In this document: positions 3,928 through 26,591 of the stretch, in pieces | Position numbering within the stretch: position 1 is the stretch's first letter | Layout: the number at the start of each line of letters is the position of its first letter | Assembly (NCBI GenBank): GCA_009778965.1 | Contig: WRFE01000015.1 | Span: 1-32,082, forward strand | Source of the DNA: Candidatus Endomicrobium labiotermitis | GTDB lineage: Bacteria > Elusimicrobiota > Endomicrobiia > Endomicrobiales > Endomicrobiaceae | DNA: 32,082 bases | Reading direction: 5' to 3' | Position numbers and translations under genes: made by a program | Notes under the pieces: generated by a model | Told to the model about the DNA's origin: nothing | Databases searched by the model: none | Seen by the model: the letters and a program-made list of their open reading frames with translations, nothing else

Positions 3928-3944
3928 AATTGTTGGAGGCCCTA

Positions 3945-6900
3945 ATGAAAAGTATAAGAATAATTTTATTATTTATAGCAGTATGCTTTATCTCTGCTTT
4001 AAATGCTTATTCTGCTGAATTTTTAGTAGGAACTCCATCAGAATTAAATACTGCGATAACAACATCGGTTACCAGGGATACCATAACAGTAACAAATGAC
4101 ATATTTATGGACGTTTCTATGGCAACTATCACCGGAAAAAATATTTCGATAATCGGAGATAATTCCGGAAATTCCGTGACATTATTCGGAAATAATAATA
4201 CCGGTTTAGTAAATACTTCGACCGTAAACATAAACAATATTTGTTTTTCAAGTTTTACTGGAGCCGCAGCGATACATAACGTAAACCGCAGTATGATTGT
4301 CTCGACAGGACCGGATGCGAATGTGTCTTTTATGTTTAATAATTCAACCAGAACGGCAGGCGGCGGCGGAGCCATATATAATGTCAGCAGTGCCGGACAA
4401 TCAAACCTTTCCGGTACAATAATTTTGGCTTCCGCGACATTTTACGCAAACAATGCCTTGAATGGCGGAAAAGGCGGCGCCATTTTTGGTTGGTCAGGCA
4501 GTAATATTATTCTTGGAACAGCAACTTTTATCTCTAATACGGCTACGGAAGGCGGCGCCATATTTTTATTCGGCGATGGGGCTTTGGGCTACAAATCGAC
4601 GCTGACTTGCGATAACGGTTACTTTGAGTTAAACCGGTCTACAAATCACGGCGGAGCCATACATAATACGGAAGGCGGCGTTTTAATTCTTTCTTCCGCA
4701 ACATTTTTCAGAAACAGCGCAGGCACTCACGGCGGGGCTATCGCAAGCGGTTATTCGTGGGCAAATGCCTATTTCGGCAATGTAACATTTACTTCAAACA
4801 CGGCAAACGCTAACGGCGGCGCGATATACCACTACGGAAACAGCGGCGGGATTGCAATCACTTCAACAGGAACATGGGCGTCTTTATTGTTTCAGTTTAA
4901 CCGGGCTAATAACGGCGGAGCTGTATATAATAATCTGCAGGCAAATCCTGTTAATCTAATTTTTTCCTCATCAACGTATATTCAAAATACGGCAACTACT
5001 AACGGCGGCGCGATATTTAATGCCAGTTATTTAACTTTTGGCAACGCGTGGTTTTTCTCAAACAGCGCGGCTAGCGGCGGAGCGATATATAACGCAAGCG
5101 TCTTGACTTCAACATTGACGTATTCAATGTTTTCTTTAAACAGAGCGGCAAACGGCGGCGCGGTATTTATGAATTCAGGCGGCATTGTTTTTGATGTTGC
5201 TACATTTACAGGAAATATAGCGACAAGTTCGGGCGGAGCGTTATATTTACGTACAGCCAGTACGGTTACATTTACCTATAATGCTATATTTACAAATAAT
5301 ATTTCAAGCGGCAGCGGCGGAGCGATATATTTAGAGGGAACCGGAAATGTATATTTTGCAGGCTCAAATATTGTTGCTGTAGGAAACATAGCAGGCACCA
5401 ACGGAGGGTTCATATATTCAACCGGAGAAAAAAATGTAGATTTAACATTCAGCAATATAACGTATGCGAACAATACAGCCGCTAACGGCGGATTGTTATA
5501 CGGAATCGGCGGCACGACTTTTAGATTTAACGGGACTGATACAAACATAAACAACTCTACGGCATCCGTATCAGGCGGCGCAATATACTTGGGAGCAGGC
5601 AGCGGGGTAAATTCTTTAGGTACTCTGTTAAATGCTCAAAGCAACCAAGCAGCGACCGGCGGATTTTTATATGTAACCGGAGGAACGGCGGCGTTTGCAG
5701 GAGCGAATATATCCAATAATACGGCATCTGTGTCCGGCGGGGCAATATATGCACAAAATAATTCAAAAATAAGCTTTAGCGGCGGGACTACGACATTTCA
5801 AAGCAATACATCGTTAACATCCGACGGCGGAGCAGTCTATTTAATCGGTTCATCGATAAGTATTTCAAATGCATATACGGAATTTATCAATAATTCGGCG
5901 GCAGGTAATGGCGGAGCGATATATGCAGAGCAATCAATAATGAGTTTTAGTGGCAGTATAATGTTCAGTTCAAACAGCGTAAACGCTTACGGATATGGCG
6001 GAGCTATATTTGCAAATCAGTCAACAATGAATTTTAGCGCGACAAACGGAAATATAGAATTCAATTCAAATAAGGCAACCGGTAATTTCAGTTCCGGAGG
6101 AGCAATAAGAGCAGAACAGGCAATAATGAATTTTATTGTTTCAACCGGTAATATTGTATTTAGCGGAAATAGCGTAGGTTATTCCGGCTTTGGCGGAGCG
6201 ATATCCGCATTGCAGTCAACAATGAGTTTCAGCGCGACAAACGGAAGTATATTGTTTAGCTCAAACAGCGCAGGCGCAGGGGAAAGAGGCGGAGCTATAT
6301 ACGCAAACAAGTCATCAATGAGTTTTATTACCGTAAACGGAAACATAGAGTTCAATTCAAACAGAGTAGAAACGTATTCCGGAGGGGCGATAGCTGTAGA
6401 CGGGTCAACAATGAGTTTTAATGTAACAAACGGAAATATATTGTTTAGTTCAAACAGTACATCTGCAAATGGAGGAGCTATAGGAATATGGTCCGGTAAT
6501 AATTCAATAATAGATTTTATTGTTTCAAGCGGTAATATAATATTCACTTCAAACAAAGCAGGTTCTTACGGCGGTGCCATAGTATCATGGGCAGACGATT
6601 CAATAATAAGTTTTAACGTTTCAAGCGGCAATATAATATTTAGCTCAAACACGGGCAGCGCGGGCGGAGCCCTATATTTGCTTGGTTCTACAATGAGTTT
6701 CAATGCAACAAATGGCAGTATAATATTTAGTTCAAACAGCGCAAACAGTTATTCTTTTGTCGGCAGCGGCGGAGCGATATATGCTCAAAATAATTCAAAC
6801 ATAAGTTTTAGCGGAGGAAGCACGACGTTTCAAAATAACAAAGCGGTAATAGACGGCGGAGCAATATATTTGATTGGTTCATCAATGAGTTTTTCAAATG

Positions 6901-9900
6901 TATATTCGGAATTTATCAATAATTCTGCGGAAGGAAAAGGCGGGGCAATATATTTAAGCAGTTCAGCAATAATAATAGACAGCACATACGGACAGGTAAT
7001 GTTTGCAGGCAACCGCGCGGCGCTGGGTAGCGATATATATGCGAATAATTCACAAATAAATTTTAATGCGCTAAATTTGATAACAATATCAAGCGGAATA
7101 TATATAGGAAGCAATAACAATGCAATAAACAAAACAGGCAGCGGGGAATTGTATTTGAGCGGAATGAATTTTATACAGGGAGAATTAAATCAAACCGCGG
7201 GAATAACAACAATAAATCAGTCAACATTTACATTTTTCAGCGGAGAGTGGAATGTAACAGACAGCGAAGGGATACGCATAACCAATTCAAACGTGACAGT
7301 TGAATCGACCGTAAATTCATTATTCAGAGATAATTCTAAATCCAACGGCGGCGCGATATTCTTGGAAAACGCCACAGCAGAATTTGTGCAGACCGTGGAT
7401 TTTATATCTAACACGGCAGGAGACAGCGGCGGAGCAATGTATATAGGAAGCGGTGCAACGGTAGCAGCAAACAATATAACATTTACCGGAAACACGGCAG
7501 GACAGAAAGGCGGAGCTGTTTATATGGAAGGAACAGCCGGAAATAATGCGGTATTAAACATAACGCAGAACACTGATACTTTAATATCAGGAAATATGGC
7601 AGACGGCGAATCGAACGTATTTTATTTAGAGCAGTATTCACAGTTAAATTTAAATATAGCAGACGATATAACAATGACAATAGCAGACGCTATAGCGTCT
7701 ATTGGAAACAGCAATAACATAATAACCAAAACAGGAAAAGGTATATTAGAGTTAGACAGCAATATTAATGAGATAGACGGTATATTAAATATATTTGACG
7801 GAACGGTAAGAACAGGCTATGCGACAGGAATCGGCGACATATATTTTACAAGCGGAACGCTGAACATAATGGATGACGTAACAATGACAAATAAAATATA
7901 CGCGTTGGATAGTAATTCAATAATAGATTTGGATATTATAAGCAGCGTGACAGTAACAATAAACGGATTGATAGGCAAAGACAATACAGGAATTTTTGAG
8001 AAAAACGGATTAGGGAAAATAATAATATCGGGTTCCGGTTCAAATATAGGCAAAACAGACGTTAACAGCGGGGAAATGGTAATATTGTCAAATGATTTTG
8101 GTTCAGAAAGATTGACTGTAAAAGAACATGCGATATTAAGCGGTACCGGAAAAATAATAGGAAATGTAACAAATAACGGATTTGTAAGAGCCGGTTATGT
8201 AAGTCCGTCCGATACATCATTTGGAACACTTACAATAAACGGAAATTATATTGAAAGCGGTAATTTGGGAATAAGACTAAACGAAGGAGCCATCGGCAGC
8301 GAAATTGTTCCTACAAACGATAAGTTAATAGTAACCGGAAATGCAACAATTAATACAGGGAGTCTTATAGATTTAGATATGACGCATGGATTTGAGATAT
8401 ATAAGAAATACACAATATTGGAATCCAACGGATTAAGTGGAATATACAGCGGACTTAAAGCACTGTATCCGTCTATTGATATAAGAATCAGCAAGGATGC
8501 AAATAATGTTTATTTAAAGATAGCAGGAATAGATACGGATTATATGGAAATACCGGGATTAGATCATAACAATACGGAAGTAGCAAAAATAATAGACGAA
8601 ACAACTTGGAGCGGAGATTCAAACAAAATAAATGATATATCGAAAATAGTAGGAACAATGGACCCGCTGGACAATGCAGGCAGAAGAAGAGTTTTGGAGG
8701 AAACAGCGGGAAGTATATACGCAAACGCATTATTGGCAAGCGGGCAGCAAATGAGACAGGCGTATCACAGAATACTTGACAGAAGAGAAAGCGGGTATGA
8801 GGGATATAATGTGTGGGCGGGAATATACGGTTCACAGAGAAAAGTAGAACAAGATTCTAACAGCGGAGATTTTAAAGCGCGTAACGGATATTTAATATTG
8901 GGATTAGAAAAATACAGCGATAACAGCAACTTTATGATGGGTTACTATGCAAGCATAGGTCAGCACGATACGCATCAGTGGGATGATATAGTAGATATAA
9001 ACGATTACCGCGGCGGATTGTATTTAGGGAAATTTATAGATAAGTGGACAATAAGAGCAGAATTAAGCGGAGGTTATCAGCAGTATCAGGGAAAAAGGCA
9101 GCAACTGCTGCTGCAGTCAAGAACGGAAAGCGAATATGACGGATGGAACATAAATGCAAATGTGGAAGCGTTTTACAAGATATTGGAAAGCAATATAGCA
9201 AACATAAGTCCGTTTGCTGGATTGGATGGAAGTTTTATAAAGACGAGCGGATTCAGGGAAAAAGGATTTGATAATGCAGCTGCGGTACTTACGGTAAAAG
9301 ACAATCAGTTTGAGATATTGAACGCGGCAGTGGGATTGAGAGCGGAAAAAGAGGTCGGAATATTAAGATGGTACGGAGAATTGGGAGCAAGATATAATTT
9401 GAGAGGCAGTAAAGGAACATTCACAGCGTCGCTGAATAATTTAAACAATGAAATGAAAATATTTGGAGCGGGAAACAGCCTGTTGTCCGGAAAAGCGGAG
9501 TTAGGATTTAGCGCTGATATCTGGAAAGGATTGGAAGTATTTGCAATGGGTTCGTACGAGAAAGCGGAAAGATTTCATCAGGTGGTAGGTGAAACAGGAA
9601 TAGGGTACAGGTTTGGACAAACTTCAAAGGACAAAGAACAGAGTTCAAATAAAGACAACGACAAAGCAAAACGGCAAGAAATGCTGAAACAGGAGGAAGA
9701 ACAAAATAGAATTGCGGAAGAAAGGGAAGCGGCAGAAAGAGCGGCGAAAAAGGCGGAAGAAGAAAGAACAAGACAAACGGCAATAGCAGCGTTGAAGAAA
9801 CAGATAGAAACTACAAGAGTGCATTTTGACTTTGATAAATCAAATTTAAGACCTGACGCAAGAAGAGCAACGGAAGAAATAGCGCAGGCGCTGAAAGAGT

Positions 9901-10145
9901 TAAAAGAGCTTGATGATACAATACAAGTGACAATAGAAGGGCATACGGATGAAATAGGAACTCATAAATATAATGAAGGATTGTCGCAGAGAAGAGCAAA
10001 CGCTGTGCATAAGAAGTTAGTAGAATTGGGAGTAGAAGCGGAGATGCTAGACAAACAATGGTTTGGAAAGACAAGACCGACAGCTACAAATAAGACAAAA
10101 GAAGGCCGAGCACAAAACAGAAGAGCTGAGATAATACTGAAGTAA
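3945..10145 (+). CDS. Giant Pmp-like autotransporter with C-terminal OmpA domain
   Basis: A 2066-residue surface protein. I start it at ATG 3945, preceded by TTGGAGG and followed by a clear signal peptide (residues 1-24, cut near AYSA-EF), rather than at the in-frame TTG 3930, which precedes the ribosome site. Residues about 130-1200 are a beta-helix passenger with about 30 GGA[I/V/L] motifs and many FxxN motifs, as in chlamydial polymorphic membrane proteins. A further beta-helix stretch runs to about 1570. Residues about 1620-1893 form an autotransporter beta-barrel (starting GYNVWAGIYG, ending IGYRFGQ). A Lys/Glu/Ala-rich coiled linker follows (about 1894-1950). An OmpA-like peptidoglycan-binding domain (about 1955-2066) contains HFDFDKSNLRPDA, GHTDEIGTHKYN and LSQRRANAV. 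A classical autotransporter ends at the barrel, so the added domain would sit in the periplasm and tie the protein to the wall. Probably an adhesin, cotranscribed with ilvD. Confidence 0.9.
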   Translation: MKSIRIILLFIAVCFISALNAYSAEFLVGTPSELNTAITTSVTRDTITVTNDIFMDVSMATITGKNISIIGDNSGNSVTLFGNNNTGLVNTSTVNINNICFSSFTGAAAIHNVNRSMIVSTGPDANVSFMFNNSTRTAGGGGAIYNVSSAGQSNLSGTIILASATFYANNALNGGKGGAIFGWSGSNIILGTATFISNTATEGGAIFLFGDGALGYKSTLTCDNGYFELNRSTNHGGAIHNTEGGVLILSSATFFRNSAGTHGGAIASGYSWANAYFGNVTFTSNTANANGGAIYHYGNSGGIAITSTGTWASLLFQFNRANNGGAVYNNLQANPVNLIFSSSTYIQNTATTNGGAIFNASYLTFGNAWFFSNSAASGGAIYNASVLTSTLTYSMFSLNRAANGGAVFMNSGGIVFDVATFTGNIATSSGGALYLRTASTVTFTYNAIFTNNISSGSGGAIYLEGTGNVYFAGSNIVAVGNIAGTNGGFIYSTGEKNVDLTFSNITYANNTAANGGLLYGIGGTTFRFNGTDTNINNSTASVSGGAIYLGAGSGVNSLGTLLNAQSNQAATGGFLYVTGGTAAFAGANISNNTASVSGGAIYAQNNSKISFSGGTTTFQSNTSLTSDGGAVYLIGSSISISNAYTEFINNSAAGNGGAIYAEQSIMSFSGSIMFSSNSVNAYGYGGAIFANQSTMNFSATNGNIEFNSNKATGNFSSGGAIRAEQAIMNFIVSTGNIVFSGNSVGYSGFGGAISALQSTMSFSATNGSILFSSNSAGAGERGGAIYANKSSMSFITVNGNIEFNSNRVETYSGGAIAVDGSTMSFNVTNGNILFSSNSTSANGGAIGIWSGNNSIIDFIVSSGNIIFTSNKAGSYGGAIVSWADDSIISFNVSSGNIIFSSNTGSAGGALYLLGSTMSFNATNGSIIFSSNSANSYSFVGSGGAIYAQNNSNISFSGGSTTFQNNKAVIDGGAIYLIGSSMSFSNVYSEFINNSAEGKGGAIYLSSSAIIIDSTYGQVMFAGNRAALGSDIYANNSQINFNALNLITISSGIYIGSNNNAINKTGSGELYLSGMNFIQGELNQTAGITTINQSTFTFFSGEWNVTDSEGIRITNSNVTVESTVNSLFRDNSKSNGGAIFLENATAEFVQTVDFISNTAGDSGGAMYIGSGATVAANNITFTGNTAGQKGGAVYMEGTAGNNAVLNITQNTDTLISGNMADGESNVFYLEQYSQLNLNIADDITMTIADAIASIGNSNNIITKTGKGILELDSNINEIDGILNIFDGTVRTGYATGIGDIYFTSGTLNIMDDVTMTNKIYALDSNSIIDLDIISSVTVTINGLIGKDNTGIFEKNGLGKIIISGSGSNIGKTDVNSGEMVILSNDFGSERLTVKEHAILSGTGKIIGNVTNNGFVRAGYVSPSDTSFGTLTINGNYIESGNLGIRLNEGAIGSEIVPTNDKLIVTGNATINTGSLIDLDMTHGFEIYKKYTILESNGLSGIYSGLKALYPSIDIRISKDANNVYLKIAGIDTDYMEIPGLDHNNTEVAKIIDETTWSGDSNKINDISKIVGTMDPLDNAGRRRVLEETAGSIYANALLASGQQMRQAYHRILDRRESGYEGYNVWAGIYGSQRKVEQDSNSGDFKARNGYLILGLEKYSDNSNFMMGYYASIGQHDTHQWDDIVDINDYRGGLYLGKFIDKWTIRAELSGGYQQYQGKRQQLLLQSRTESEYDGWNINANVEAFYKILESNIANISPFAGLDGSFIKTSGFREKGFDNAAAVLTVKDNQFEILNAAVGLRAEKEVGILRWYGELGARYNLRGSKGTFTASLNNLNNEMKIFGAGNSLLSGKAELGFSADIWKGLEVFAMGSYEKAERFHQVVGETGIGYRFGQTSKDKEQSSNKDNDKAKRQEMLKQEEEQNRIAEEREAAERAAKKAEEERTRQTAIAALKKQIETTRVHFDFDKSNLRPDARRATEEIAQALKELKELDDTIQVTIEGHTDEIGTHKYNEGLSQRRANAVHKKLVELGVEAEMLDKQWFGKTRPTATNKTKEGRAQNRRAEIILK
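5735..5926 (+). repeat. Duplicated passenger segment, first copy
   Basis: Within the adhesin, this stretch and 6767-6950 are near-copies at DNA level. Both run GGAIYAQNNSxISFSGGxTTFQ, then GGA[V/I]YLIGSSxS, then EFINNSAxGxGGAIY. Between them lie about ten shorter units of the form SxMSF...GNIxFSSNS...GGAI. The pattern suggests growth of the passenger by segmental duplication. Confidence 0.75.
6767..6950 (+). repeat. Duplicated passenger segment, second copy
   Basis: Partner of the segment at 5735-5926, with the same order of motifs (AQNNSNISFSGG, YLIGSSMSFS, EFINNSAEGKGGAIY). Substitutions are scattered, many at third codon positions, and one small length difference precedes DGGAIYLI. The duplication is therefore not very recent. 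Confidence 0.75.
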
Positions 10146-17583: not shown

Positions 17584-17656
17584 GCCGAGGTAGCTCAGTC
17601 GGTAGAGCAACGGTCTGAAAAACCGTGTGTCGGCAGTTCGATTCTGCCCCTCGGCA
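17584..17656 (+). tRNA. tRNA-Phe (GAA)
   Basis: A 73-nt cloverleaf. The acceptor arm GCCGAGG pairs with CCTCGGC. The D-arm is TAGCTCAGTCGGTAGAGCA. The anticodon loop CTGAAAA gives GAA. The T-arm is GGCAG TTCGATT CTGCC. The discriminator base is A. CCA is not encoded. Confidence 0.95.
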
Positions 17657-17678: not shown

Positions 17679-17751
17679 GCCGATGTAGCTCAGTTGGTAG
17701 AGCAATTGCTTCGTAAGCAATGGGTCGTAGGTTCAAATCCTATCATCGGCT
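17679..17751 (+). tRNA. tRNA-Thr (CGU)
   Basis: A 73-nt cloverleaf. The acceptor arm GCCGATG pairs with CATCGGC. The D-arm is TAGCTCAGTTGGTAGAGCA. The anticodon arm ATTGC TTCGTAA GCAAT reads CGU, for the ACG codon. The T-arm contains GGTTCAAATCC. The discriminator base is T, with no encoded CCA. It lies 22 nt after tRNA-Phe, probably on the same transcript. Confidence 0.93.
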
Positions 17752-17876: not shown

Positions 17877-17887
17877 TAGGAATATTT

Positions 17888-18460
17888 ATGAATTTTTTGA
17901 AAATATTATCAGTTTTTGCGGTGGTACTGTTTTTTGCGCATTTGGTTTATGCTGACATTAAAGTCACGAGTGTAGAAAAGAGCGGAGCAGAATACAGCAT
18001 AAGCTTTAATAATTCTATAAAAGTATCCGGTATAAAACTGATAAATAAAGACGGGAAAAATGATATAGAATTTCCGTTTTATATAAGTAAGGGCGTTATA
18101 CATAAGCAGATTTCAGTATTAAACAGGGATTACAGAAAATATCTGATAAACTCTATTGAAAAAGGTTTAGCGTCGGATATTGACAACGCAAATGACAGGG
18201 TAAGTTTTAAAATAAATAAATTCAGCGCTTTGAAAAATCATAAATCAATAAAAGCTTTTATGTCGGTTATTTTTGACGGATTGATAGAAGTTGAGTGTCG
18301 TGTTTTAAGCGGGAAAAACGGATTGTGGATAGCTTGGCCTTCTGTTAAAAAAGAATCGGGCTGGAGCGGGGTTTTTGAGTTTACGAATCTAAAATTAAAA
18401 AATAAAGTTGAATCGGCATTAATCCTATACTACAATGATAAAAATGAAAACGGAAAATAA
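17888..18460 (+). CDS. Exported protein with two SpoVG-like domains
   Basis: A 190-residue protein with a clear signal peptide (residues 1-22, cut after LVYA). The mature part appears to be two SpoVG-like units. Unit 1 (about 23-97) has FNNSIKVSGIKLINKDGKNDIEFPFYISKG. Unit 2 (about 102-185) has KAFMSVIFDGLIEVECRVLSGKNGLWIAWPS. It aligns with the SpoVG pattern of an Ile/Val-rich strand, V-x-x-I-R-V-I-x-G-x-N-G-L-F-V-A-x-P-S, and a C-terminal helix matching KIQDAVLxEY (here KVESALILYY). Known SpoVG proteins are cytoplasmic nucleic-acid binders of about 95 residues, so export and duplication are both unusual. Its last 26 nt overlap the first diguanylate cyclase gene. Function unknown; the SpoVG assignment is from motif reading only. 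Confidence 0.75.
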   Translation: MNFLKILSVFAVVLFFAHLVYADIKVTSVEKSGAEYSISFNNSIKVSGIKLINKDGKNDIEFPFYISKGVIHKQISVLNRDYRKYLINSIEKGLASDIDNANDRVSFKINKFSALKNHKSIKAFMSVIFDGLIEVECRVLSGKNGLWIAWPSVKKESGWSGVFEFTNLKLKNKVESALILYYNDKNENGK

Positions 18461-19823
18461 AAAACACAGCGACAGCATATTAGATATTTTAAGTACCGTA
18501 GGGCTGCCTGTTTTGTCAGGAGCTTTTTTTATTGTATGGGTTATTAATTTTCTTGAAAATCCTATAATTACCTTTCCTCTTATTTCAATATTAATACTTG
18601 CTTTGTATTTTTTTTCCGGAAGTATTTACAGCGGACTTCTTACGGTTTTTGCGGTTGTAGCCGGAGTAGTAGGCGTTATTTTTGTGGAAAGTTCTTCGCA
18701 AGCTTATTATGTGCTTGCGGGATGCGCAATCGTAACTGCTTTTTACTTTCTTTTTGATATGTATAAAGAAAGCTATTTGTCTATGAAAAACGGAAAATCC
18801 GAAGAATATGAAACTCTTGAAAGAGAAAATGCCATAAAAGATTCCGAGATATTGGAGAATAAAAAGAGAAGCGCGTCCATAATGCAGCAGATAAAAAATT
18901 TTCGCCAAATAGGAAGAATGATACAAACCTTTCAGGCGTCTCTTGACGAAGAAGAAATAATAATGAAATCCGGGGATCTTGCAGCGCAGTTTATCGGCAT
19001 AGGCAACTGGAAATTGAAAAAAAATGTTCACGGCGACGTTTTTGCCAGCTATATAAAAAACACGGGGCTGCCGTTAATTGTTACAGATATTTCCAAAGAT
19101 AAACGTTTTACGCTTTCAAAAAACAGATATTTATCGGTTATTGCCGTTCCTGTGGAAGTCAACGGAAGTTTCTGGGGAATAATAAAAGGGACTTCTTATA
19201 AAGCTAACAGTTTTAATGATTCTGATTTAAGGCTTTTGTCAATATTGTCGGGAATCGTAAGCACGGTTTTAAACAATGCCTATCTTTATAAAAAAGCCCG
19301 CGATTTAGCTATAACCGACGGTTTGACTGGACTTTTTACGCAAAATTATTTTAAGGAAAGGCTTAAAGAAGAAATAAACCGTTCCAAAAGCAATAATGTA
19401 TCTTTGGCTGTAGGTCTTTTAGACGTAGATTTTTTTAAAAAAATCAATGATACTTACGGACATCAGGCTGGAGACGCTATTTTGCGTCAGGTAGCCCTGC
19501 TTTTAAGAGGAAGATTCAGGGAAACGGATTTAATTGCCAGATACGGCGGAGAGGAGTTCGGCGTAATAATGCTTCACACTGATTCAAAAGAGGCCTTTAA
19601 AGTATTAGAAGAGATAAGGACTATAATTGAAGCGGAAAGATTTTTTATTCCTACGGAGAGTTATTCTCCTATACAGGTTAGAATTACCGTAAGCATAGGT
19701 TTTGCGGAACTCAGACAGTATAATTCTCTGATTGAAAATGAGCTTATCAAAAAAGCCGACAGCGCTTTGTATAAAGCGAAAAATTCCGGAAGAAACAGGA
19801 CGGTTGAATTCATTGATTATTAA
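18435..19823 (+). CDS. Membrane GAF-GGDEF diguanylate cyclase
   Basis: A 462-residue protein that should make cyclic di-GMP from two GTP. Three to four hydrophobic segments fill residues 18-110. A coiled-coil-rich linker (about 115-150) and a GAF-like sensor domain (about 155-285, with GLPLIVTDISKDKRF and VPVEVNGSFWGIIKG) follow. The GGDEF domain begins ITDGLTGLFTQNYF. The active site reads GGEEF (residues 371-375), with metal-binding Asp in LDVDFFKKINDTYGH. An inhibitory-site RxxD (Arg362 to Asp365) stands five residues before it, so product feedback is likely. ATG 18435 lies inside the SpoVG-like gene, with another ATG at 18444. No ribosome site is visible, so translation is probably coupled. 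Confidence 0.92.
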   Translation: MIKMKTENKKHSDSILDILSTVGLPVLSGAFFIVWVINFLENPIITFPLISILILALYFFSGSIYSGLLTVFAVVAGVVGVIFVESSSQAYYVLAGCAIVTAFYFLFDMYKESYLSMKNGKSEEYETLERENAIKDSEILENKKRSASIMQQIKNFRQIGRMIQTFQASLDEEEIIMKSGDLAAQFIGIGNWKLKKNVHGDVFASYIKNTGLPLIVTDISKDKRFTLSKNRYLSVIAVPVEVNGSFWGIIKGTSYKANSFNDSDLRLLSILSGIVSTVLNNAYLYKKARDLAITDGLTGLFTQNYFKERLKEEINRSKSNNVSLAVGLLDVDFFKKINDTYGHQAGDAILRQVALLLRGRFRETDLIARYGGEEFGVIMLHTDSKEAFKVLEEIRTIIEAERFFIPTESYSPIQVRITVSIGFAELRQYNSLIENELIKKADSALYKAKNSGRNRTVEFIDY

Positions 19824-21162
19824 AAAGGTATTTCCCATTATCACGGCTGCTGCAGTTGTTTTGACGCTTTATTTTATTTTAAATAACGGCATCGGGATAA
19901 TAGTCTGGTCGTATTTTCTGGTTCTTGCCGGATTATACTGTGCCAAATTTTACAGAATAATCGCTCCGGTATGCAGCGTTTTTGCCGTGGCTGTAATAAT
20001 AAAATATTTCGGCGTTTATCCGTATTCTGTTTCAATAACCGCCGTGGTCTTTATTTCCGTTATAGCGATTCCGTATTATTATTTTGAAAAAACCGGAAAA
20101 GAAGAAAAAGAGTTGTCCGATAAAAATTTAAAGCTGAAAAATAAATATACGGAAATTATTGCGGAACATTCTTATGCGGTTACGGAAAGACAGAGATATG
20201 AGGATATGATTGAACGTATAATGCAGCTTTACATTATAGGAAGAGATTTGTCCAAAGACATGCTTGTGGAAGAGTATGTGGGAACTATAATGAAAAGTCT
20301 CCTGCCTAGAACAGGAATTATAAGCATAAATATTTTCGACAGAGTAAAAAACGAATGGAAACCGCTTGCTTTTTCGAAACAGTATCAGCAGAAAGACTGG
20401 GAATTGTATATGCAGTTTGGAAAACCTCTGAATAATGAAATAAGATATGTAGTTATAGATAATCCGCCGTTTTGTTCGCGCGATTATAAAACGGTATTTT
20501 GGCCTTTGAAAATTGAAAACGAGCTTTTAGGATGTATTATAATCGTTTGCGAAAAAGATTATGCTTCAAGATATACTCAGGAAGGAGCCATTTTTGGCCC
20601 GCAGATAGCGTTGGGAACTAAAAGAATAAAGCTTTTCAGCGAAATAAGCGAGAAAACAAGGACTGACGGTCTTACGGGACTATATCTTAAACGTTATTTT
20701 ATGGAAAGGCTTCAGGCTGAAGTCCAGAGAGAAAAACGTTATTCAGGCGGTTTTTACATTTTAATGCTGGATCTTGACCATTTTAAGACTGTAAACGACA
20801 CATACGGACATCTTGTAGGGGATAAAGTTCTCTGTTCTATCGCAAAAATGCTTGTCGATTGTATTCGTCCCGGAGATTTGGTAGGAAGATACGGCGGTGA
20901 AGAATTCATAATATTTATGTCTTTGGCGTCTAAAGACGAAGCCGTTTCCATTGCGCAAAATATTATTGATACAGTTCAAAAGAAAAAATATAAAGAAAAT
21001 GACGAAAAATTCAACGTTACCATAAGCGTAGGAATAAGCAATTATCCCGAAGACGCTGAGAGTATAGATCAAATAATTTCTGCCGCAGATAAAGCTTTAT
21101 ACAAAGCCAAACAAAACGGCAGAAACCAGCTTGTAGTTTACGATAAAAATCTTAGGCTATAA
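19804..21162 (+). CDS. Membrane GAF-GGDEF diguanylate cyclase, second copy
   Basis: A 452-residue protein with the same plan as its neighbour. Hydrophobic segments fill residues about 8-95, followed by a charged helical linker, a divergent GAF-like region (about 150-275) and a GGDEF domain starting RTDGLTGLYLKRYF. The active site is GGEEF (residues 364-368), LDLDHFKTVNDTYGH carries the metal-binding Asp, and RPGD (355-358) is an intact inhibitory site. Start choice is uncertain. An ATG at 19732 would overlap the upstream gene by 92 nt and add charged residues read from its GGDEF end. TTG 19804 (AGGA just upstream) or TTG 19813 fits the membrane start better. The two cyclases probably arose by duplication but are quite diverged outside the GGDEF domain. 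Confidence 0.88.
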   Translation: MNSLIIKKVFPIITAAAVVLTLYFILNNGIGIIVWSYFLVLAGLYCAKFYRIIAPVCSVFAVAVIIKYFGVYPYSVSITAVVFISVIAIPYYYFEKTGKEEKELSDKNLKLKNKYTEIIAEHSYAVTERQRYEDMIERIMQLYIIGRDLSKDMLVEEYVGTIMKSLLPRTGIISINIFDRVKNEWKPLAFSKQYQQKDWELYMQFGKPLNNEIRYVVIDNPPFCSRDYKTVFWPLKIENELLGCIIIVCEKDYASRYTQEGAIFGPQIALGTKRIKLFSEISEKTRTDGLTGLYLKRYFMERLQAEVQREKRYSGGFYILMLDLDHFKTVNDTYGHLVGDKVLCSIAKMLVDCIRPGDLVGRYGGEEFIIFMSLASKDEAVSIAQNIIDTVQKKKYKENDEKFNVTISVGISNYPEDAESIDQIISAADKALYKAKQNGRNQLVVYDKNLRL

Positions 21163-23593: not shown

Positions 23594-24202
23594 ATGAATT
23601 TGAAAAAATTGTCGTTATGTCTTTTGGCTTTAACGTTTTGCGTAAGCATGTTCGCGTGTTCCGGACAAAGAGTCACAAGAGTCAATAATGACCAACCTAT
23701 TGATTTAAGCGGAAACTGGAACGATACGGATTCGCGATTGGTGTCGCAAGAAATGATAACTGATGCTTTGGGTTCTGCGTGGCTGAGAGATTTTACAGAG
23801 AAGCAGGGAAGAAGACCTGTTGTTATAGTGGGAGATGTTTTAAATATGACTGAAGAACATATAAATACAGGTACATTTGTACAAGATCTTGCAAGAAATT
23901 TAACAAATTCAGGCAGAGTAACTTTTGTCGCTTCAAGAGATCAGCGCGAAGCTTTAAGAGATGAAAGAGCGGATCAGGCGGAGCACGCAAGAGCTTCCAC
24001 TGTAAGCCAGCAGGGAAATGAAACCGGCGCGGATTTTATGCTTAAAGGGCAGATTAGTTCTATGCTTGACACAGGAAGCGGAGCACAGTTAATAGTTTAT
24101 CAGGTTGACCTTGAAATGATTAATATTGAAACTAATGAAAGAGTATGGATGGGCAATAAAACTATAAGAAAAGTAGTATCAAGAAATCGTTTTAGAGCGT
24201 AA
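23594..24202 (+). CDS. LpoB-like lipoprotein (penicillin-binding protein activator family)
   Basis: A 202-residue lipoprotein with lipobox SMFAC (Cys22) and a short Asn/Asp-rich linker. The globular domain (about 45-202) is like LpoB/YcfM: VSQEMITDALGSAWLRDF, RPVVIVGDVLNMTEEHINT, FVQDLARNLTNSGRVTFVASR, GADFMLKGQISSM and YQVDLEMINIETNERVWMGNKTIRK. In E. coli LpoB crosses from the outer membrane to activate PBP1B. Here only family membership can be claimed. The start follows TAGGAGGA. The COG3014-like gene starts 2 nt after the stop, in a conserved-looking trio of exported proteins. Confidence 0.88.
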   Translation: MNLKKLSLCLLALTFCVSMFACSGQRVTRVNNDQPIDLSGNWNDTDSRLVSQEMITDALGSAWLRDFTEKQGRRPVVIVGDVLNMTEEHINTGTFVQDLARNLTNSGRVTFVASRDQREALRDERADQAEHARASTVSQQGNETGADFMLKGQISSMLDTGSGAQLIVYQVDLEMINIETNERVWMGNKTIRKVVSRNRFRA

Positions 24203-24204
24203 TA

Positions 24205-25632
24205 ATGACCGGTATCGGTTTTAAAATTATAAAAGCGCGTTCCTTACGCATTGCCGTTTTATTTCTTATTGCGGCGATGTTCGGGGGATGCGCTTCCGGT
24301 TTAAACGGCAGGTATTACAACCAGTTAAGAGATAAAATAGACTCGGGAGAGTTTCAAGCGGCCGCGGATTTAGTGCAAAACTCTAAAAGAAAATACGGCC
24401 AAAGAAATATTCTTTTATTTCATCTCGACAGCGGGTTTACAAATCATCTCGCCGAAAATTTTCAGATAAGTTTCAGAAATTTTGAAAACGCAAAACTCAG
24501 TTTTGAAGAGTTCTTTCAAAGAAGCATAAGCGCGGGAGCCGCGTCTATGTTTTTTAACGATTCGACTATGCCTTATTCCGGTACGAATTTTGAAAGAACC
24601 CACATGCTTGTTTTTGCGGCTTTAAATCATATTTTGTCGGGTGATGATATGGCTGCAGCCGTTGAAGCAAGACAGGCAAACAGACTGTTTTTGACATTTG
24701 CCGTTGACGGTGATTTTTACAGCGACGACGGTTTTATAAGATATTTTATGGGGCTTGTCTATGAAAATGCCGGATTTTTAAACGATGCGCATGTGTCTTA
24801 TTTCAGGGCGCTGAGAGCCTACCGCGGCGGAGTCGTAAATATTGCTCCTCCCCAAGATTTAATAAACGACGCTTATACCACAGCCTTGCGTTTGAGAATG
24901 TCCGCGAGAGCCGCAGAAATAAAAGCCGAATTTCCTTCCGCGCGTGACAACAGGCTTAATTCGCCGAACGGAGAACTTATTGTAATATGCTATAACGGTT
25001 TTGTACCAAGAAAAATCAGCAGGGTTTTTGAGTTCGCGCTTTTTGATATATGGCCATACATAAATCAGGTTGAAGTTGACGATGAAGGAGAAGCCGCTGA
25101 ATTTGAAAGGGCTAGATCTGTTACAATCGCAGCTTTCGCCAGCGATTTTGTAAGAGTCGCTTTTCCGCAATACCAAAGGATTCCCAATAATATAGTTTCT
25201 TTTTCGGTAGATACTAATGTCAGAACAGAAGTTTCTTATATGGCTCAGGATTTGGCGCAGCTTGCCGAGAGATATCTTGACGATCAGATATTAAAAATCC
25301 GCGCTAAAGCTCTTGCGAGAGCCGCGGTCAGATATGTTCTAGGCAGAACTACTTCAAAAGCCGTTGCCGACGCGACCGGTCACGAAGCCTGGGGATTTTT
25401 AACCAGAACTCTTTTTAATATTTTTACGGCTGTTATTGAAAATGCGGATACAAGGGCATGGAATATTATTCCTGAAAATATACTTATGGCAAGGCTTCAG
25501 CTGCCTGAAGGACAAAATGCAGTTACTCTGAATTTTTTAGACAGAAACGGACGCAGACTTAGAGTTGAAGATATGACGGTTGATATAAAAAGCGGAAGGA
25601 AAAATTTTATCTTTGTGAGGGTAAGGTCATGA
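24205..25632 (+). CDS. COG3014-like lipoprotein
   Basis: A 475-residue exported protein with an N-terminal basic stretch, a hydrophobic core and lipobox MFGGC (Cys29). The mature part is helical and TPR-like early on (FQAAADLVQNSKRKYGQRNILLFHLDSGFTNHLAENF). HMLVFAALNHILSGDDMAAAVEARQANRLF and IRYFMGLVYENAGFLNDAHVSYFRALRAY follow, as I recall for COG3014 proteins of unknown function. A beta-rich C-terminal region ends the protein. The first Met comes immediately after TAA of the LpoB-like gene, so translation is coupled. The stop overlaps the next gene (ATGA). Such proteins recur beside LpoB-like and LPP20-like genes, which suggests a shared envelope role. Confidence 0.78.
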   Translation: MTGIGFKIIKARSLRIAVLFLIAAMFGGCASGLNGRYYNQLRDKIDSGEFQAAADLVQNSKRKYGQRNILLFHLDSGFTNHLAENFQISFRNFENAKLSFEEFFQRSISAGAASMFFNDSTMPYSGTNFERTHMLVFAALNHILSGDDMAAAVEARQANRLFLTFAVDGDFYSDDGFIRYFMGLVYENAGFLNDAHVSYFRALRAYRGGVVNIAPPQDLINDAYTTALRLRMSARAAEIKAEFPSARDNRLNSPNGELIVICYNGFVPRKISRVFEFALFDIWPYINQVEVDDEGEAAEFERARSVTIAAFASDFVRVAFPQYQRIPNNIVSFSVDTNVRTEVSYMAQDLAQLAERYLDDQILKIRAKALARAAVRYVLGRTTSKAVADATGHEAWGFLTRTLFNIFTAVIENADTRAWNIIPENILMARLQLPEGQNAVTLNFLDRNGRRLRVEDMTVDIKSGRKNFIFVRVRS

Positions 25633-26591
25633 AAACAAAAATTTTGTCTTTATTATTCTTGTTCGCTGTTGTTCCGGTTTTTGCGTCTGCGCCCGGGCCT
25701 CAATGGATTAAAACGGAAAAGCATATTAATTATCCGAACGATACTTTTATTACCAGGGTCGGGAAAGGTTCTACGTTCAAGGAAGCTGAATCGGCGGCAA
25801 AAAGAATCATCGTAAATGAGATTGTTAATGCTATACAAAAAAGCGGATTTACAATACGTAAAGCAGACAAGCTTGATGCGTTTATTCTCAGATCTTACGC
25901 TTCGTCATTGTCTTATAACAACAAAGCAGCCGGTGAATTTTATGTTTTTGGCACGGTCAATAGGAACACTATCAGAATGGACATTGAAAAGGAAATACTT
26001 TCAGTCAGAGGTAATGCTATTCACAATTTGCGTAAACTTGACGATTCCGTTTCAAATACTGTTCAAAAAATTAGAGAAGTAGACAATGTTTTAGCTAAAT
26101 ACAGACATGAAGATGTAATGATTCTTTTAAAGCAGTATTTAAAAGGAGATAATCTTATTCTTGAATCGCCGACATTCGAAAAAGAACGTCTTATAGATGA
26201 AAGGATAGAGTTATTTCAAAAAGTTTCATATGTTCTTAAAGTCGATGATTTTAACACAGCTAGAGTAAAAAAGTTTTTTTCTGAAAACGGATTGGTACTG
26301 CTTCCTTCGGTTCCTGATCAAAGTCTCGGGAGAGACATAATAGCCATAAATTGTAAAAAGGATATATCAGAGTCAAGTTACAATGAAGGTTTTAAATACG
26401 ATTGGACTGCTGAAGTATCTTTTACCGACGCTTATAATCCGGGCGTTGTTATATATTCCAATTCTTCATCCGGTTCTGAAAGTTCGGCAATAGAGCACGC
26501 AGCCGGCGAAAAAGCAAGGCTTTCCGCCGAACAGGAACTAAATGATATAATTTTTGATTTTTTGAAGACGACGTTTGACGAAAAAGAATAA
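25629..26591 (+). CDS. LPP20-like exported protein
   Basis: A 320-residue protein with a signal peptide (residues 1-19, cut near VFASA) and no lipobox cysteine. The N-terminal domain PQWIKTEKHINYPNDTFITRVGKGSTFKEAESAAKRIIVNEI resembles the LPP20 family, in which a Trp-containing start and an alpha-helix of Ala-rich repeats follow the signal. A helical middle (RKLDDSVSNTVQKIREVDNVLAKYRHEDVM) and a beta-rich end follow. It overlaps the COG3014-like gene by 4 nt. Function unknown; the trio with LpoB-like and COG3014-like proteins suggests cell-wall or outer-membrane assembly. Confidence 0.7.
   Translation: MKTKILSLLFLFAVVPVFASAPGPQWIKTEKHINYPNDTFITRVGKGSTFKEAESAAKRIIVNEIVNAIQKSGFTIRKADKLDAFILRSYASSLSYNNKAAGEFYVFGTVNRNTIRMDIEKEILSVRGNAIHNLRKLDDSVSNTVQKIREVDNVLAKYRHEDVMILLKQYLKGDNLILESPTFEKERLIDERIELFQKVSYVLKVDDFNTARVKKFFSENGLVLLPSVPDQSLGRDIIAINCKKDISESSYNEGFKYDWTAEVSFTDAYNPGVVIYSNSSSGSESSAIEHAAGEKARLSAEQELNDIIFDFLKTTFDEKE

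Follow-up and report, generated by a model that had tools for sequence, protein, structure and literature searches.

To our knowledge, SpoVG has been described solely as a small cytoplasmic DNA/RNA-binding protein. The basic doublet K50-R51 of Staphylococcus aureus SpoVG is essential for DNA binding (PMC3688583). Among periplasmic proteins, the HhH protein ComEA and ComH of Helicobacter (PMC6877725) bind DNA that enters the envelope, and YfiR is the regulator of the Pseudomonas cyclase YfiN. Endomicrobium symbionts retain and express comEC, comF, comM, dprA, and recA, and the passage of DNA over their outer membrane has been left unexplained (PMC8809381).

We analyzed a stretch of 32,082 nucleotides from Candidatus Endomicrobium labiotermitis (contig WRFE01000015.1; the window), the genome of which comprises 1.89 Mb and has its relatives among public genomes in Endomicrobium and Endomicrobiellum from termite guts. 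An initial sequence-only reading had placed at 17888-18460 (+) an open reading frame of 190 aa with a signal peptide and two SpoVG-like units, and this assignment holds; the protein is named SpoVG2 here. The fold is known, but the branch of exported tandems, along with its signature and operons, seems not to have been described before. In agreement with the initial remark that no role had been described, no paper on an exported SpoVG was found in the literature searched, which covered few subscription journals and does not amount to proof. An exported, duplicated branch alters what this fold is known to do.

Two SpoVG Domains in One Chain

The gene is preceded by a Shine-Dalgarno-like element and divides into the following parts:

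17878-17881 (+): AGGA Shine-Dalgarno-like element, 6 nt 5' of the ATG (read directly)
17888-18460 (+): CDS of the exported tandem SpoVG protein SpoVG2, 190 aa (ORF reading, PF04026, AF2)
17888-17953 (+): signal peptide, residues 1-22, cut after LVYA (hydrophobic segment and A-x-A kept in the family)
17960-18163 (+): SpoVG unit 1, residues 25-92, without the basic doublet; N41, P63, and Y65 invariant (Pfam, AF2, profile comparison, fold search)
18203-18454 (+): SpoVG unit 2, residues 106-189, with the W147/W150 signature; x-K replaces the K-R doublet (Pfam, AF2, profile comparison)

The signal peptide reads MNFLKILSVFAVVLFFAHLVYA and is followed by the two SpoVG-like units. The profile search proposed for each half gave 48.3 bits for the whole protein against Pfam PF04026 (cut-off 29.6, two stretches, E 1.2e-12) and 33.0 bits for unit 2 alone (E 6.7e-8), both above the cut-off, while unit 1 alone remained under the curated cut-off with 19.1 bits (E 0.0015). 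In HHalign profile-profile comparison, the unit-1 family matched canonical SpoVG with E 5e-8 (probability 94.8%) and unit 2 with E 7e-17; the two units matched each other with E 3e-9. Because of the match to the canonical profile, the assignment of unit 1 as SpoVG is secure as well.

Structure prediction and comparison with SpoVG, likewise proposed at the outset, led to the same result. The AF2 model of the full protein (pLDDT 89.9, pTM 0.81) has the identical order in both units, seven strands and then a helix, and Foldseek matched it to SpoVG 2ia9_A (prob 1.00, rmsd 1.6). When unit 1 was folded alone, ranks 1-10 of the fold search were taken by ten PDB SpoVG chains (prob 0.92-1.00). The SpoVG fold is present in SpoVG2 as modeled, the predicted structures matching 2i9x, 2i9z, and 2ia9 with probability near 1. 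Pfam detected SpoVG only, with neither a HhH domain (HHH_3) nor a YfiR domain, and the protein missed the equivalog cut-off of the septation regulator NF009749 (33 vs 108 bits). Profile libraries identify such tandem proteins by the SpoVG domain alone.

SpoVG2 is not a single-domain cytoplasmic protein but a tandem with a signal peptide, and the tandem proteins also differ from single SpoVGs in composition. The mature tandem protein is basic across the family, with a median pI of 9.54, against 6.58 for single SpoVG and 6.32 for other exported neighbors. In the core of unit 2, W occurs at position 147 in 72 of the 77 tandem proteins, compared with 4/65 singles, and position 150 is W, Y, or F in 75 of the 77 compared with one of the 65, where M is found in 64. 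A conserved basic doublet was not encountered at the corresponding site of the window protein, which has P-F-Y in unit 1 and S-V-K in unit 2. Across the family, unit 1 lacks the doublet; unit 2 carries x-K in most Endomicrobiaceae and R-K in many other classes, and the site is deleted in family f16.

Export Across the Tandem Family

Signal peptides were assessed by hydrophobicity and motif. Counting covered the 77 distinct tandem ORFs at all loci, with a start codon and a hydrophobic segment ahead of unit 1 as the criterion. An export signal was found in 74/77 tandem proteins, or 75/77 if L190 is included, a lipoprotein with its signal further upstream. The two other exceptions are L169, a fragment at a contig end, and L192, which is truly without a signal. 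L192 (genome G477) lies between ispE and prs, the usual place of spoVG, and is possibly the cytoplasmic counterpart of the duplication. Among single-domain SpoVGs, 1/65 was flagged for a signal, an artefact of an upstream frame, so that true signals amount to 0/65.

The clean Sec signal peptide with a cut after LVYA, as first read, is borne out by the family: homologues of SpoVG2 retain the n-, h-, and A-x-A regions, the hydrophobic segment and the A-x-A being conserved throughout. Tandem SpoVGs with lipobox forms (LTAC-G, VVSC-G) occur in a phylum other than Elusimicrobiota, and these lipoprotein signals independently support export. Signals in nearly all tandem members, lipoprotein versions elsewhere, and the distinct sequence signature give good support to a use of this fold in exported proteins. 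SpoVG2 is best read as a Sec-exported envelope protein that probably resides in the periplasm.

The opposite view, an ordinary SpoVG regulator retained in the cytoplasm, with its N-terminus membrane-anchored or misread, is very improbable. Initiation beyond the hydrophobic stretch, which the sequence-only reading had itself raised against export, finds no support: between the hydrophobic core and residue 125 the frame offers a single start, the TTG of codon 19, which could initiate a signal-less protein but has no evident ribosome site. The signal-less L192 at the usual ispE-prs site is a further point in favor of retention. Nevertheless, the signal is kept in almost all tandem members though its sequence drifts, lipobox forms exist in another phylum, and the signature residues split exported and cytoplasmic kinds almost completely.

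Distribution, Ancestry, and Selection

The search for similar proteins in Elusimicrobiota showed that the tandem is widespread there and extends to three or more other small phyla; what had looked like a single odd protein belongs to an old, multi-phylum family. SpoVG2 matches were found in 52 of the 77 genomes of Endomicrobiaceae, and profile searches recovered full-length homologues across the order, the class, and several further families of the phylum. Family f15, with small genomes, has canonical SpoVG alone and no tandem according to the profile search. In the window genome (G000) the exported tandem is the sole PF04026 match and no canonical SpoVG gene was detected; several sister genera carry both. 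Beyond Elusimicrobiota, the tandem is present in all three genomes of a first small phylum, in 3/3 of a second, and in 1/9 of a third; judged by group size (3, 3, and 9, against 341 for Elusimicrobiota), these are distinct phyla. A tblastn search of P0001 against plasmids and phages gave no match.

In a tree of the units, all unit-1 copies cluster (100/98) and unit 2 lies closer to the single SpoVGs, although the tree was built on a short alignment and contains some long branches; as far as such sequences can tell, the topology fits one old duplication. Genome G414 encodes two further forms: at L186 a chain of three or more SpoVG units that runs off the end of the contig, and at L198 a short exported single unit-1-like SpoVG adjoining a PorV-like gene. 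Among close relatives dN/dS ranged from 0.17 to 0.52, and SpoVG2 is therefore under purifying selection, even in Endomicrobiaceae living inside protists. The gene is broken in three endosymbionts.

Gene Neighborhood and Possible Partners

In the window, SpoVG2 lies between two tRNA genes, which are listed for context only, and two cyclase genes:

17584-17656 (+): tRNA-Phe, upstream of SpoVG2
17679-17751 (+): tRNA-Thr, upstream of SpoVG2
18435-19823 (+): diguanylate cyclase 1 with TM region, GAF, and GGDEF (Pfam); its start, ATG 18435 or 18444, overlaps the SpoVG2 stop
19732-21162 (+): diguanylate cyclase 2 with TM region and GGDEF (Pfam, conserved order); the true start is probably later than the mechanically assigned TTG

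Elsewhere in the window, inspection by eye showed a 2071-aa ORF at 3930-10145 (+), rich in GGAI/N-S repeats, polymorphic outer-membrane/autotransporter-like, and with an OmpA-like domain at its end, as well as three successive exported or lipoprotein genes of envelope type, LpoB/LPP20-like, at 23594-26591 (+).

The order SpoVG2 and then two GGDEF cyclases (Pfam) recurs in Endomicrobiales, where the SpoVG2 stop overlaps the start of the first cyclase in 18/23 distinct loci; in the window the overlap is 17 or 26 nt. In other families a conserved 7-TM protein, for which no Pfam or NCBIfam match was obtained, is located directly 3' of the exported SpoVG (L101, L104, L109, L119, and also L186 and L189), and L104 has both this protein and the cyclases. 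By analogy with YfiR-YfiN, which sets a precedent, these arrangements would suit a SpoVG2 that is the periplasmic partner of a multi-pass inner-membrane signaling protein, sensing an envelope signal or relaying it to the cyclases. We regard this role as rather unlikely, albeit a serious candidate: by eye the cyclases have no obvious periplasmic domain, the endosymbiont loci L125, L136, L140, and L147 keep SpoVG2 without adjoining cyclases, and at most loci outside Endomicrobiales no cyclase lies beside it.

Other frequent neighbors are PorV/PorQ-family barrels, FlgD/CHU_C-tailed secreted proteins, and lamin-tail proteins, with an S8 protease as well, and in f7/f9 an mraZ-rsmH cluster follows downstream (genes named by eye). 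Together with the basic mature protein and the two aromatics that replace the Phe/Met of cytoplasmic SpoVG at the unit-2 core, these neighbors would suit a binder of an anionic surface polymer, such as peptidoglycan or LPS, that would aid envelope building or the display of surface proteins; endosymbionts do retain murein, LPS, and OMPs (PMC11257099). Such a function is slightly more doubtful still. No cell-wall-binding motif was found in SpoVG2, and PorV-family genes are numerous in Elusimicrobiota; f15 genomes have them but no SpoVG2, whereas G284, G267, and G268 have SpoVG2 but no PorV-family gene. This phylum-wide distribution also rules out an obligate PorV/T9SS link.

The f16 cluster was considered as a type IV pilus operon with SpoVG2 in the place of PilP and rejected, as the neighbors are instead Mur ligase-like, RsmA-like, peptidase, LemA-like, HtpX-like, EF-P-like, HAD-like, DUF192-like, and GspE/PilB-like genes (all by eye) and an S8 protease (Pfam).

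A Candidate Receptor for Incoming DNA

Judged by some of its neighboring genes, SpoVG2 may act on incoming DNA within the envelope. At one locus of another phylum (L188), the order is a ComEA-like HhH protein (HHH_3), a metallo-lactamase-like ORF (named by motif, without a Pfam match), a 69-aa ORF, SpoVG2, and ComEC (PF03772, SNase, Lactamase_B), the start of which overlaps the SpoVG2 stop. HHH_3 proteins were also detected near SpoVG2 in L093, L096, and L109 by Pfam and in L098 by motif. In L109, one open frame at 8432-10141 (+) combines a 23S rRNA-intervening-sequence protein with an HHH_3 domain and may be a read-through of two genes.

ComEC is present in 53/77 Endomicrobiaceae genomes, including the window genome. 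Among the matches over the cut-off, which a divergent ComEA could escape, these genomes gave no HHH_3 protein of ComEA size; the HHH_3 matches sit in long frames of about 720 aa (recognizably Tex in the window genome) or of at least 313 aa. We tentatively favor a possible function of SpoVG2 in transformation, as a receptor for DNA in the envelope comparable to ComEA or to ComH of Helicobacter, since SpoVG binds nucleic acid, the mature protein is basic and exported, one locus includes ComEC, Endomicrobiaceae have ComEC without a ComEA-size HHH_3 protein, and Endomicrobium expresses competence genes according to published work. The signaling and polymer-binding roles are close rivals of the DNA receptor, and both ligands suggested in the initial reading, envelope polymers and extracellular nucleic acid, are still candidates. 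Two SpoVG folds, an export signal, a basic mature protein, purifying selection, and conserved operon contexts form the computed basis. The strongest leads are the ComEA/ComEC locus L188, the apparent absence of ComEA in ComEC-bearing Endomicrobiaceae, and the overlapping operon with two cyclases.

As a DNA receptor, SpoVG2 would bind DNA entering the envelope, with the two units of one chain perhaps replacing the SpoVG dimer as a pseudo-dimer; it would retain this DNA in the periplasm and hand it on to ComEC, the channel. Production of SpoVG2 would, in Endomicrobium, be tied to the two membrane-bound diguanylate cyclases, which would tune the process.

Several findings argue against a DNA receptor. 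The K-R doublet is absent in unit 1 and mostly x-K in unit 2 of Endomicrobiaceae, the link to ComEC is a single locus in a genome that has a ComEA-like gene too, the partners in the window are cyclases and not com genes, and G322 carries ComEC without SpoVG2. In endosymbionts, SpoVG2 and ComEC are lost together (20/1/4/17, Fisher p 7e-7). This co-loss is barely stronger than that of SpoVG2 and PorV (p 6e-6), and genome erosion thus explains most of it; as proof of function it is confounded and was discarded.

Comparison With Known Systems

If SpoVG2 binds DNA, it would bear on the printed open question of DNA uptake in Endomicrobium (PMC8809381). The wider proposal, that in several phyla an exported tandem SpoVG replaced ComEA or was added to it, receives transforming DNA in the periplasm, and is regulated through the cyclase operon in Endomicrobium, is unlikely on present evidence. 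If it were true, a cytoplasmic nucleic-acid-binding fold would have been repurposed beyond the cell membrane and would fill a gap in the DNA uptake of intracellular symbionts.

Like the YfiBNR system of Pseudomonas, the locus has a gene for a small exported protein directly 5' of a membrane diguanylate cyclase; however, SpoVG2 has no YfiR domain match, and two cyclases and no recognized outer-membrane sensor are found here. With the SpoVG family (PF04026; 2i9x, 2i9z, 2ia9), both units have the fold in common, and unit 2 is recognizably close in sequence. SpoVG2 differs from this family in having two units per chain, in being exported and strongly basic, and in its W-x-x-W-P core, while unit 1 has lost the DNA-binding doublet and unit 2 has a weakened one. 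Unlike ComEA, it is without the HhH fold and its DNA binding is putative; like ComEA and ComH, it is exported, and with one locus placing it between a ComEA-like gene and ComEC, it could fill the same role.
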